Origin: Microbacterium terricola
Lineage (GTDB): Bacteria > Actinomycetota > Actinomycetes > Actinomycetales > Microbacteriaceae
NCBI RefSeq assembly: GCF_027943945.1
Contig: NZ_AP027141.1
Span: 124,001-188,000, forward strand
DNA length: 64,000 bases
Direction: 5' to 3'
Shown one piece after another: positions 16,449 to 22,359 of the stretch. A program made the translations under genes and the position numbers. The notes under the pieces were generated by a model. It was not told the DNA's origin. It was given only the letters and a program-made list of their open reading frames with translations, and did not search any database. Each line of letters starts with the position of its first letter. The stretch's first letter is position 1.

Positions 16449-16748
16449 GGGTGCTCCTCGCTCTGTCAGTGTCGCCGGTGCGGTCATCGTCTCAGATCGG
16501 GTGGTCGGGCGACTTCACAGGCGCGTCCGCTAGGCTTGATCGGTCGGCTCTGGACACCGTGCATGCTGCACGGATGGGTTTGTGAGTCCAAGGGGCCGAT
16601 GGTGGGAGCGAATCCGCTCCGACGACCATCATCTGAATGGCCCCCGGCCGACGACAGTCCGGGTTACTCCGTGCCGCAAGAGCGGCCGCGCACGCGCGCG
16701 TTCTGAGGAGTGCTGTTCTCGCACGAGACAACCCAGAAGGACACCACC
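16449..16748 (+). promoter_or_regulatory. 300-bp gene-free leader with two hairpins before the DEAD-box helicase
   Basis: No convincing gene lies here. Two stable hairpins are visible: CCGTGCA-TGC-TGCACGG (16557-16573) and a two-tier stem, GATGGT/ACCATC outside GGAGCG/CGCTCC (16598-16630). A ribosome site AGAAGGA stands before the ATG at 16749. If transcription starts near the TAGGCT at 16531, the mRNA leader is about 200 nt. That is long for this compact region and resembles the structured leaders of cold-responsive RNA helicase genes. Confidence 0.5.
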
Positions 16749-18917
16749 ATGCCCAAGAGCAAGAAGCCGGCCGCAGGCCGCGCCCAGAACTTCGAGCCCC
16801 GCTACGCCAAGAAGGCCGGCACCGATCGCTTCCGCCAGGCCGGACCGGCCAAGGCAGGCAGCAAGAGCCCCAAGCACCGCGGCTTCCGTGCCGAGGAGAC
16901 GACGGATGCTGCGCCCAAGCGTCGCTGGACCGCGCAGGAGCGCGCCGGTCGCGACGAGGCCCGCACCATCCGCACGCACAGCCGCGACGAGCGCGGCACC
17001 CGTTCGTACGCTGACCGGCCGGCTCGTGATGACCGTCCCGCGCGTTCGTACAGCGACCGGCCCGCTCGTTCGTACGGTGACCGTCCGGCTCGCGATGACC
17101 GTCCCGCGCGTTCGTACGATGACCGTCCCCGCCGCGACGACCGCGGCACAGCCGCGGGCCGCTCAGGCGGCGCGCCGCGCTCGAACGACCGCCGCCCGGC
17201 GGGTCGAGACGGATCCCCGCAGTTCGGTCGCGATGCAGACCGACCGCGTCGTGAGTACGGCAACGACCGTCCGGCGCGGTCGTTCGACGATCGTCCCCGT
17301 CGCGAGTACGGCAACGACCGTCCGGCCCGTTCGTTCGACGACCGTCCGCGTCGCGACAACGACCGCGCTCCGCGCCGCGAGTACGGCAACGACCGTCCGT
17401 CCCGTTCGTTCGATGACCGTCCGCGCCGTGAGTACGGCAGCGACCGTCCGGCGCGTCCGTCCAACGACCGTCCGGCCCGTTCGTTCGATGACCGTCCGCG
17501 TCGCGACAATGACCGTCCGGCCCGTTCGTTCGATGACCGTCCGCGTCGCGACAACGACCGCGCTCCGCGCCGCGAGTACGGCAGCGACCGTCCGGCCCGC
17601 TCGTTCAACGACCGTGCCCCCCGCGGCAACGACCGTCCGACGCGCTCTGACTGGAACACGGCTCCGAAGCGCTCGGCCGCGCACGAGCAGCACGTCGACG
17701 TCGTGCACGAGCGCCTGCAGGCCGAGGCCATCCAGGCGACCGACGTCCAGGGCGTCGGCTTCGGCGATCTGGGTCTCGGCGACAACATCGTCCGCGTCCT
17801 GAACGAGCTGGGCGCAGCATCCCCCTTCCCGATCCAGGCCGCCACGATCCCCGAGATCCTCGCGGGCCGCGACGTGCTCGCCCGCGGGCGCACCGGCTCC
17901 GGCAAGACCATCGCGTTCGGTGCCCCGCTCGTCGAGAGCGTGCTGCGCTCGCAGGCCGGTCAGCGTCGCGAGTTCGGCCGTGCCCCCAAGGCGCTCATCC
18001 TCGCGCCGACGCGAGAGCTCGCGTTGCAGATCGACCGCACGATCCAGCCGATCGCCCGCAGCGTCGGCCTGTTCACCACGCAGATCTACGGTGGCGTCCC
18101 CCAGGGTCGTCAGGTCGGTGCGCTGAAGAAGGGCGTCGACATCATCATCGGCACGCCCGGCCGCATCGAGGACCTCGTGAACCAGGGCAAGCTCGACCTC
18201 TCGGGCGTGCAGATCGCGGTGCTCGACGAGGCCGACCACATGTGCGAGCTCGGGTTCCTCGAGCCCGTGCAGCGCATCCTGCGCTTCACCGCGGAGGGCT
18301 CGCAGAAGCTGCTCTTCTCGGCGACGCTCGACCGCGAGGTGTCGGCGCTCGTCGACGAGTTCCTCGTCGAGCCGGCCGTGCACGAGGTCGCCGGTGAGGA
18401 CCAGGCCTCCAGCACGATCGAGCACCGGGTGCTCGTGATCGACCACCGCGACAAGGCCGAGATCCTCGACTCGCTCGTCGACCGCGACGGCAAGACCCTC
18501 GTCTTCGCCCGCACCCGCGCCTACGCCGAGATGCTCGCCGAGCAGTTCGACGACGTCGGGATCAACGCGGTCGCGCTGCACGGCGACCTCAACCAGGCCA
18601 AGCGCACGCGCAACCTGGAGCGCCTCACCTCGGGCCGCGTCAGCGTTCTCGTGGCCACGGACGTCGCCGCCCGCGGCATCCACGTCGACGACATCGACCT
18701 GGTGATCCAGGCCGACGCGCCGGACGAGTACAAGACGTACCTGCACCGCTCCGGCCGCACGGGCCGTGCGGGCGCCAGTGGTCGCGTCGTGACGCTCATC
18801 ACCCGTCAGCGGCGCCGCCGGATGACCGAGATGCTCGAGCGCGCGGAGATCGACGCACCCTTCGAGGACGTCCGCCCCGGCGACGACCTCATCGAGGCGA
18901 TCCGTCAGCCCCAGTAG
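16749..18917 (+). CDS. DEAD-box RNA helicase with Arg/Asp-rich disordered N-terminus
   Basis: The 722-residue protein couples ATP hydrolysis to RNA duplex unwinding. Residues 1-80 are basic and about 90-305 form a low-complexity array of [19 protein letters not shown] units. The helicase core runs from about 335, with [18 protein letters not shown] (Q motif), [10 protein letters not shown] (Walker A), [33 protein letters not shown] and [10 protein letters not shown]. The ATG at 16749 has AGAAGGA upstream. The RNA-binding array is at the N-terminus, opposite to the usual C-terminal position. The structured leader suggests post-transcriptional or cold control. Confidence 0.93.
17016..17660 (+). 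repeat. Coding tandem repeats of the helicase N-terminus
   Basis: Units of about 30-60 bp such as GACCGTCCGGCCCGTTCGTT and CGCGAGTACGGCAACGACCG recur with small changes. They encode alternating acidic and arginine residues ([13 protein letters not shown]). Near-identical copies around 17300-17600 suggest expansion by recombination. Confidence 0.8.
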
Positions 18918-20244: not shown

Positions 20245-22359
20245 TCAGAACAGTCGGCCCGGATCGGCCGCGAAGGCGACACCCGCGCGCCGCCCCCTCG
20301 TGGTCGTGACGACGGCCGCGCGCGCCGCGGCCCCCGCTGCCGTCGCGCGTGGGGGAGCGTCGTCCTCCGCCTCGCCGTTGAGGCGGTAGACCCGCAGCAG
20401 CGGTCGCACCCGCTTCGCGAGCCACACCCGGTACGCCTTGGGTGCGGTCGCGGTGACGCCGGGGTACAGGCCGCGGTAGCTCGACACCAGTTCGGGATGC
20501 TCTCGCTCGAGCCACTGCAGGAACCACTGCTTCGCTCCCGGGCGCAGATGCAGGGCGCCGAACACGACGCGTGCGGCGCCGGCATCCTTGATCCGTGACA
20601 GTGCGTGGTCGAGCGCCGCGATCGAATCGGTCAGGTGCGGCAGGATCGGCATCAGGAAGACCGTCACGCGGAACCCCGCCGCCGTGGCGGCCCGCACCGT
20701 CTCGAGTCGTGCCGCCGCGCTCGGCGTGCCCGGCTCCACGAGCTTCTGCAGGGTGTCATCGAAGACCGCGATCGACATCGCGAGCGACACCTCGACGGAT
20801 GCTGACGCCTCCTGCAGCAGCGGCAGATCGCGCCGCAGCAGAGTGCCCTTCGTCAGCAGCGAGAACGGCGTGCCCGAGTCGGTGAGTGCGCCGATGATCT
20901 CCGGCATGAGCCGATAACGGCCCTCCGCGCGCTGGTAGGGGTCGGTGTTCGTGCCGAGCGCGACGGTCTCCCTGCGCCACGCCGGCTTGGCGAGTTCGCG
21001 CCGCAGCACGTCTGCGACGTTGACCTTCACGACGATCTGCGAGTCGAAGTCGTGCCCCGCGTCGAGCTCGAGGTACTCGTGCGTGCCGCGGGCGAAGCAG
21101 TTGTGGCTGATCACCCCGTTCGCGATGAAGTCGCCCGTACCGGTTGTGATGTCGACCATGTCGATCTCGACGCCGAGATCCTCGATCGTGACGATACGGA
21201 GGTCGACCGCCGTCTTGACGGCGGTGCCCGCGATCAGGCGTTTCCGGGTGATCGCCGGGTCGCCGAACGTGAAGACCCGCTGGCGCGCCGGGAGCCCGCC
21301 GGTGACGCGGATCGCCCGCACGCCGTTCGGACGCGGGGGCTCGACCACATACGTGACACCGCACGCGTCGAGCGCCTCGCAGGTGAGTCTGATGATGTCC
21401 TCGTCCTTGTTCGAGATGCGCAGGATGCCGCGGGAGCAGGACCCTTCCGCGTCGAAGATTCCGCCCAGGAATCCTGCGTGCCAGTCGGTCGTCCGGGCAA
21501 CCGGTTCGGCGATGATCGCCTCGATCGTGGTGACGTCGCTGGCGCGCGCTGTGTGGATCGCGGTCATCTCGCGTCGATGCGGCGTCGCAGCGCTGAAGGG
21601 GCGGGTGTGGGTGACGACACCGGAGGATGCCAGATACTGACGGGTCCGGTCGAGCGCCTCCTCGTCTGCGAGTGCGAGCCGGAAGCGGTGGATCCGTCGC
21701 GTGCGACGGCCGTCGGCGTAGGCCTTGTGGAGGATCATCCTGTCGCCGCGGATCATCCCCGACAGGTAGCCGGACTGATAGTCCGTGGTCTCGGACGCGA
21801 CACTGACCGCACTCCCGGCACCGAACCCGAGCAGCCGGTTGTTCAGTGTCAGGTGGGGGCGCTGAGGAACCCCGCCCGATGCGCCGATGACGTACTTCCA
21901 GCCGCGCTCCGTGAGGAACCGGTGGTCACCGCTCGCGACGAGTTCGGTCCCGTCGGCAAGCGTGACGCGGTACGCGCGTTTGCGTGTTCGCCAGGCGGCC
22001 CTCACCGTCGTCGGCACATAGCGCCGGTACGCCCCGCTCTCCTGTGTTCCGATGATCTGGTCGCCAGGGGTGAGGGACGAGATCGGCACCTGTCGCCCGT
22101 CGGACTTCAGGACGAGAGTGTCGGGCGCCAGGCAGTACGAGCACGCATGAGAGCAGCCTCGGTAGGGGTTCACCGTCCAGTCGAACGGCATCGCCGAGAC
22201 CGAGGGCACATGGTTGAGCGCACTCTTGGCCATCACCTCGTGGAAGGTCATCCCCGCGAACTCAGGGGTCGTGACCGACCGCACGAATCCGCCGTAGCTC
22301 TCCAGGCCGGGCAGGGCGGCAGCATCCGTCGCATCCAGCTGCTGTCCCTGCCACCTCAT
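20245..22359 (-). CDS. Radical SAM protein (Rv2578c-like) interrupted by an intein
   Basis: The 704-residue precursor contains 359 extein residues. The N-extein (1-75) ends NPYRGCSHACSY and the C-extein resumes CFARGTHEYLEL. Splicing therefore completes the CxxxCxxC motif for the SAM-binding [4Fe-4S] cluster. Downstream are RVTVFLMPILPHLTDS and AARVVFGALHLRPGAKQW, typical of the Rv2578c-like/SplB-related family. The reaction of this family is not established to my knowledge. The start at 22359 is supported by a TACTGT box five bases upstream. Activity must depend on splicing because the third cluster Cys is the splice-site residue. Confidence 0.9.
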   Translation of the reverse strand: MRWQGQQLDATDAAALPGLESYGGFVRSVTTPEFAGMTFHEVMAKSALNHVPSVSAMPFDWTVNPYRGCSHACSYCLAPDTLVLKSDGRQVPISSLTPGDQIIGTQESGAYRRYVPTTVRAAWRTRKRAYRVTLADGTELVASGDHRFLTERGWKYVIGASGGVPQRPHLTLNNRLLGFGAGSAVSVASETTDYQSGYLSGMIRGDRMILHKAYADGRRTRRIHRFRLALADEEALDRTRQYLASSGVVTHTRPFSAATPHRREMTAIHTARASDVTTIEAIIAEPVARTTDWHAGFLGGIFDAEGSCSRGILRISNKDEDIIRLTCEALDACGVTYVVEPPRPNGVRAIRVTGGLPARQRVFTFGDPAITRKRLIAGTAVKTAVDLRIVTIEDLGVEIDMVDITTGTGDFIANGVISHNCFARGTHEYLELDAGHDFDSQIVVKVNVADVLRRELAKPAWRRETVALGTNTDPYQRAEGRYRLMPEIIGALTDSGTPFSLLTKGTLLRRDLPLLQEASASVEVSLAMSIAVFDDTLQKLVEPGTPSAAARLETVRAATAAGFRVTVFLMPILPHLTDSIAALDHALSRIKDAGAARVVFGALHLRPGAKQWFLQWLEREHPELVSSYRGLYPGVTATAPKAYRVWLAKRVRPLLRVYRLNGEAEDDAPPRATAAGAAARAAVVTTTRGRRAGVAFAADPGRLF
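21100..22134 (-). mobile_element. Intein with LAGLIDADG homing endonuclease (345 aa)
   Basis: Residues 76-420 of the precursor. It starts CLAPDTLVLKSDG (block A, Cys1), has LVASGDHRFL (block B with the conserved His), and ends GDFIANGVISHN before Cys421 (blocks F-G). Between are two dodecapeptide motifs, YLSGMIRGD and FLGGIFDAEG, each retaining an acidic metal-ligand residue. The endonuclease may therefore be active and the element mobile. All residues needed for standard Cys1/His/Asn/Cys+1 splicing are present. Base composition is like its host gene, so the element has probably circulated within high-GC relatives. Confidence 0.92.

Follow-up and report, generated by a model that had tools for sequence, protein, structure and literature searches.

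Why should a radical SAM gene carry an intein exactly at the third cysteine of its putative cluster motif, and does this placement serve regulation or reflect the habits of a mobile element? The initial annotation of the window (the whole 64,000-nt stretch of Microbacterium terricola DNA analysed here) had proposed that splicing might respond to iron or redox state and so act as a switch. The reading we favor, to which we assign a probability of about three in four, is that of a mobile class 1 intein, lodged in conserved codons at the third cluster Cys, whose LAGLIDADG endonuclease is probably active.

Anatomy of the interrupted gene

Read on the minus strand, the gene starts with an ATG at position 22359 and ends with a stop codon at 20245-20247; a plus-strand reading of 20245-22359 was ruled out by stops in the translation. 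The initial coordinates, 20245..22359, are correct. The features are as follows.

20245..22359, minus strand: Rv2578c-family radical SAM gene interrupted in frame by the intein, 704 aa and a stop codon (NF038136, 775.5 bits; NF038135, 496.1 bits)
22135..22359, minus strand: N-extein, 75 aa, ending in GCSHACSY (open reading frame extraction)
22153..22155, minus strand: codon of the first motif Cys, Cys69 (position -7) (invariant in 42 aligned intein-bearing proteins)
22141..22143, minus strand: codon of the second motif Cys, Cys73 (position -3), a candidate disulfide partner of Cys1 (invariant in 42 aligned intein-bearing proteins)
21100..22134, minus strand: putative class 1 intein, 345 aa, Cys1 to Asn345 (profile matches, junction residues, genus comparison)
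22132..22134, minus strand: codon of intein Cys1, at the third-Cys position of the precursor (99 of 99 extracted genus inteins)
21742..21771, minus strand: first LAGLIDADG motif, GYLSGMIRGD, acid Asp131 (sequence and genus alignment)
21442..21474, minus strand: second LAGLIDADG motif, GFLGGIFDAEG, acid Glu230 (Pfam LAGLIDADG_3 and genus alignment)
21097..21099, minus strand: codon of Cys421 (position +1), third Cys of the mature motif (99 of 99 genus inteins; invariant in 42 aligned proteins)
20248..21099, minus strand: C-extein, 284 aa, radical SAM domain (Pfam and open reading frame extraction)

The match to NF038136, the model for intein-containing Rv2578c family radical SAM proteins, extends over model positions 1-570 of 574 (cut-off 700), and that to NF038135, which describes the Rv2578c radical SAM host family, also exceeds its cut-off (430). 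Host family, site and architecture are all shared with NF038136, and nothing of substance is different. NCBI already names the class by this curated model, and the window protein joins it as a new case; taken alone, the window gene is a routine addition to an annotated class. Pfam Radical_SAM (PF04055) scored 55 bits against a cut-off of 29.5, and excision of the intein joins CSHACSY to C, giving CxxxCxxC. By these two features the protein is predicted to be a radical SAM enzyme.

The splice junctions, marked here by slashes, read GCSHACSY/CLAPDT ... GVISHN/CFARG. Scores on the window intein exceeded the cut-offs of TIGR01445 (26.7 bits; cut-off 24.5) and Pfam LAGLIDADG_3 (PF14528; 23.2 bits; cut-off 22.5), and stayed below that of Pfam Intein_splicing (PF14890; 31 bits; cut-off 35.8). 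Cys1, the block B His71, the C-terminal His344-Asn345 and the Cys nucleophile at +1 would place the element in class 1. The original statement that all splicing residues are intact holds for these positions; in block B, the Thr is replaced by Ser68, a replacement found in 79 of 79 full-length inteins of the genus. In class 1 inteins the Thr of the block B TxxH sequence is highly conserved, not strictly defining, and Ser68 appears to be a conservative change. Both LAGLIDADG motifs carry their acids, as had been noted, and point to a homing endonuclease; among full-length genus inteins, Asp131 is present in 79 of 79 and Glu230 in 75 of 79. A search of the 3.25 Mb genome for the intein N-terminal domain gave a single match, the window intein itself. 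Elsewhere in the window, positions 16710-18917 of the plus strand encode a protein resembling a DEAD-box helicase, whose N-terminal part contains a long series of R/D-rich repeats.

Distribution in Microbacterium and in the phylum

Sampling of the genus Microbacterium with one genome per species showed 98 of 366 genomes scoring above the NF038136 cut-off. Some match was present in 350 genomes, about 250 of which stayed below the intein cut-off, and 16 had none; no control genome (0 of 14) exceeded the cut-off. Matches named after NF038136 occur in many Microbacterium species. From the genus, 99 intein-bearing genes were extracted, that of the window included. This set includes two genes (L086 and L133) that are cut and score below the cut-off, yet contain the intein, and leaves out one (L034) that scores above it but has an in-frame stop.

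All 99 inteins occupy the same codon and have Tyr at -1, Cys1, a His-Asn end, Cys at +1 and Phe at +2. The first description, of a 345-aa intein placed exactly at the third motif Cys of a radical SAM protein, is borne out by this uniformity. Lengths fall into two groups: 80 inteins of 283-348 aa (one of 283, the others of 343-348) and 19 of 154-228 aa. The latter lack most or all of the endonuclease and retain Cys1, the His-Asn end and Cys+1. Comparison with intein-free homologues at the same site showed an uninterrupted motif in 59 genus alleles; the DNA of the empty site is conserved. Within a single genus, one codon is thus found empty, filled by the full intein or filled by an endonuclease-deleted one, states that form a natural series of the homing cycle.

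The nineteen endonuclease-deleted inteins (L023, L040 and L068-L084), with their varied lengths at one site, might serve as splicing tools. One of them (L081, from genus relative G160) has repeated EIIGT units within the N-terminal splicing part. In L034 (genus relative G019), the in-frame stop is a TAG in the endonuclease part, and the stretch around it is dissimilar; this may be a natural break or a sequencing error.

Across the phylum sample, 16 of 396 genomes exceeded the NF038136 cut-off, two of them Microbacterium. Among the 28 phylum loci (L168-L195), 20 have a readable intein at the third Cys, 3 are intein-free and 5 (L170, L180, L182, L183 and L185) fall outside the regular expression used for the motif.

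Inheritance, loss and probable transfer of the intein

The extein tree contained 163 rows (158 from the genus and 5 from outside) and was built by a quick method; it is a tree of the host gene, not of the species. Excluded were L001 and L087 (duplicate, partial), L005 (failing the motif expression) and L034 (stop in frame). L133 was additionally excluded from the pairwise comparisons of identity, tree conflict and synonymous divergence (pS).

On this tree, intein presence requires at least 30 changes between intein and no intein, 18 of which are forced by starred branches. Shuffled labels required 50.4 changes on average, and none of 500 shuffles was as low as 30. Presence is both clustered and patchy, and since it is clustered, a large share of it is inherited. 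Loss of the endonuclease follows a different pattern: 17 changes, at least 10 of them forced, against a shuffled mean of 18.3, with 84 of 500 shuffles as low. This loss is scattered, with no clustering beyond that seen on shuffling.

With sums taken across 13 selected close pairs, pN/pS was 0.06 in the extein, 0.13 in the splicing part and 0.21 in the endonuclease, a value that indicates purifying selection on the endonuclease. Synonymous divergence was compared in 774 pairs of equal intein length (pairs of unequal length were excluded, and the pairs are not independent). Over all of these, inteins are more diverged than exteins, with a median pS of 0.62 against 0.47. Extein pS is below 0.45 in 280 pairs; among these, the intein has the lower synonymous divergence in 20 and not in the other 260. 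In 8 of the 280 it is under half as diverged as the extein (for example, 0.022 against 0.213 and 0.061 against 0.321), which suggests recent transfers between close species. At the protein level, none of 3003 pairs had an intein more than 5 percentage points closer than its extein. Conflict between the two trees is moderate, since an extein branch contradicts 4 of 34 intein branches at a support of 95, 9 of 47 at 90 and 28 of 66 at 80. The window intein gives no sign of recent transfer, its nearest relative being 69% identical in the intein and 89% in the extein. Among the phage and plasmid records searched, none covered 80% of the query, and a vector for the Rv2578c element was not seen.

Probable cluster cysteines in the precursor

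Residues Cys69, Cys73 and Cys76, the last being Cys1 of the intein, already form a CxxxCxxC arrangement in the precursor; in the mature protein the third ligand position is taken by Cys421, in place after splicing. The original claim that no SAM cluster can form until splicing is thus too strong: as the intein itself begins with a Cys at the third position, the motif is complete beforehand and a metal or cluster might bind before splicing. Such a ligand, held by the Cys pair of the N-extein and Cys1, would block the first splicing step.

A profile of intein-free homologues was compared with solved structures and found spore photoproduct lyases nearest (E 0.0013), their GCxxxCxYC segment aligning weakly, at 3.7 bits. 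The lyase lacks an intein and aligns over short stretches alone, with the GCxxxCxYC segment in common. One intein-free homologue compared singly with the structures gave no match up to an E value of 10. Together, family membership and the weak lyase alignment make the third Cys a probable cluster ligand. Intein-free loci match the expression NP[YF]RGC...C..C in 64 of 65 cases (L005 being the exception). Twelve aligned homologues free of the intein have an invariant Cys76, with Cys69 and Cys73 conserved in at least 90%; one row lacks that part. As the motif cysteines are kept in relatives free of the intein, they are kept for the enzyme, and their conservation is no evidence for a switch.

Cys73, at position -3 of the window intein, reproduces by sequence the redox layout of the MoaA type. 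MoaA is a radical SAM enzyme, and a redox trap in the MoaA intein of Pyrococcus abyssi was reportedly described by Callahan and colleagues (Callahan et al.) in 2011. Excerpts from later sources state that a native disulfide between Cys-3 and Cys1 controls the activity of this intein (PMC3922620, PMC10663303) and that oxidation stops its first splicing step, an effect tied to the oxygen sensitivity of MoaA (PMC10663303). A radical SAM host, a Cys at -3 and Cys1 are common to the two inteins; the P. abyssi host is, however, archaeal and its disulfide has been reported, whereas the window intein is likened to it by layout. The MoaA proteins examined contain two CxxC places. In the family of a Thermococcus metagenome-assembled genome, matches above the cut-off occur in 88 of 94 genomes, and these matches are uninterrupted. 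Oxidant-responsive splicing in actinobacteria is described, in the passages available, for the Mycobacterium tuberculosis SufB intein and for M. smegmatis DnaBi1; these differ from the window intein in host and site, DnaBi1 is of class 3, and the passages on SufB say nothing of a cluster ligand at its +1 Cys. Given the published MoaA precedent, the switch proposed for the window intein is plausible but not new, and by analogy iron or redox switching is possible.

Mobile element, relic or switch

Inheritance with occasional loss of an immobile relic, its endonuclease dead, would account for the clustering of intein presence on the extein tree, for protein identities that show no distant transfer and for the 19 of 99 inteins that have lost the endonuclease. 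We consider it very unlikely nonetheless: both acids are kept in the window and, nearly throughout, in the full-length inteins of the genus (Asp131 in 79 of 79, Glu230 in 75 of 79), the endonuclease shows a pN/pS of 0.21, and eight close pairs have an intein pS under half that of the extein. An error of annotation or assembly has next to no chance of being the explanation, since the frame is unbroken within a single 3.25 Mb contig and other genomes carry the same element at the same codon. A switch responding to redox state or iron, and retained by the host for that reason, is less improbable. Here a Cys-3/Cys1 disulfide, or a metal or cluster on Cys-7, Cys-3 and Cys1, would block the first splicing step and hold back an oxygen-sensitive enzyme until reducing conditions return. 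The sequence CSHACSY/C does place a Cys at -3, and the motif expression that includes this Cys matched 99 of 99 inteins; the P. abyssi disulfide provides a model, and published accounts of mycobacterial inteins describe inhibition by oxidants or zinc. Against this, the same cysteines are kept in alleles lacking the intein, some 250 genus genomes match the family model without reaching the intein cut-off, and presence is patchy, with some pairs suggesting transfer. We therefore regard a host-kept switch as unlikely.

Patchy presence combined with signs of mobility is what would be expected of a selfish element without a regulatory role. As a mobile intein, the element is inserted in the highly conserved Tyr-Cys-Phe-Ala codons at the third cluster Cys, and its endonuclease would be expected to cut intein-free alleles there. 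Retention by the host would follow from protein splicing, in which Cys1, His, Asn and Cys+1 remove the insert and restore CxxxCxxC. The site would suit an intein because its DNA is conserved, a Cys is available at +1 and imprecise deletion destroys the enzyme. Under ordinary conditions splicing would most likely be constitutive; since Cys-7, Cys-3 and Cys1 lie close together in the sequence, some sensitivity to oxidants or metals could arise incidentally. The clade has also come to occupy the equivalent Cys of other three-Cys proteins.

The same intein clade in other hosts

Three protein searches were made with inteins of the clade (best 120 of 7946 matches, best 120 of 984, and 112 of 112), yielding 351 proteins. 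The selection followed similarity to the intein, about 5-20 extein residues being included in two of the queries, and does not amount to a census. Among the 351 matches listed, 332 have the arrangement C-x(3-8)-C-x-x/Cys1 ... /Cys+1; the C-extein begins with CFA, as in the window, in 194 of these 332, so that the count leans on near relatives. Of the remaining matches listed, 9 are without the N-terminal part, 1 shows the motif but no located +1 residue, 1 has Cys-3 without the wider motif, and 8 lack the motif, one of them being cut before it. Helicase, RNase H-like and other motif-less hosts occur among the more distant matches listed.

Several host families are involved. Two radical SAM hosts of the PA0069 family (L190 and L192, scoring 453.5 and 455.6 bits on NF033668, cut-off 360) have the intein at the equivalent Cys, and L189 and L191 resemble them by appearance. 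In an IMG/VR viral contig (L196, 2871-6968), the intein lies at the last Cys of the motif, reading NPYVGCSNQCNY/C...AHN/CYL. The motif of this host is radical SAM-like, yet the protein has no Pfam Radical_SAM match and belongs to a PHROG of unknown function; a related protein (P0130) has a Radical_SAM match below the cut-off. The match figures of a further locus, L197, are identical to those of L196. On a Streptomyces plasmid (NZ_CP129127.1; L201, 2378-4222), a DUF5131 protein carries the intein at the last motif Cys, TGCDRVSKGCDN/C...THN/CYA. DUF1848 hosts are represented by P0327 and, by precomputed domain, P0331. Pfam lists DUF5131 and DUF1848 without known function; we infer that the motifs of these other hosts may hold clusters.

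In different proteins, then, inteins of one clade interrupt three-Cys motifs at their final Cys and have a Cys at -3, as does the redox trap published for MoaA. No account of a single intein clade occupying this position in several protein families came up in the literature searched. As the Cys-3 layout is shared across hosts, redox or iron sensing can be asked of many natural precursors. A bolder proposal is that the lineage is specialised for the last Cys, its Cys1 substituting for the absent third ligand, and that precursors may load a metal or cluster on Cys-7, Cys-3 and Cys1, so that metal loading or oxidation would gate splicing alike across the Rv2578c, PA0069, DUF5131, DUF1848 and viral hosts; we hold this to be quite improbable.

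Other candidates were set aside. The protein of Virus Rctr197k (KX853510.1; L200, 819-4088), named 'radical SAM protein-like', holds an intein and matches PHROG 62, 'DNA helicase', with 88.7 bits; it looks misannotated because of its intein. The intein of viral locus L198 lies in a protein that appears terminase-like and is not accompanied by the motif. The match H26, on a Natrialbaceae plasmid, showed no open frame above 150 aa with C...C..C or His-Asn/Gln-Cys.

The hosts differ in their surroundings. In P0327 and P0331 the interrupted motif, CxxxCxYC, lies close to the C-terminus, and the C-extein comprises 23-24 residues. The L196 intein gene lies directly downstream of a gene resembling, by appearance, a DNA cytosine methyltransferase. 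On the Streptomyces plasmid, no gene is annotated at the DUF5131 frame, and the next annotated gene encodes the three-Cys-motif partner TcmP.
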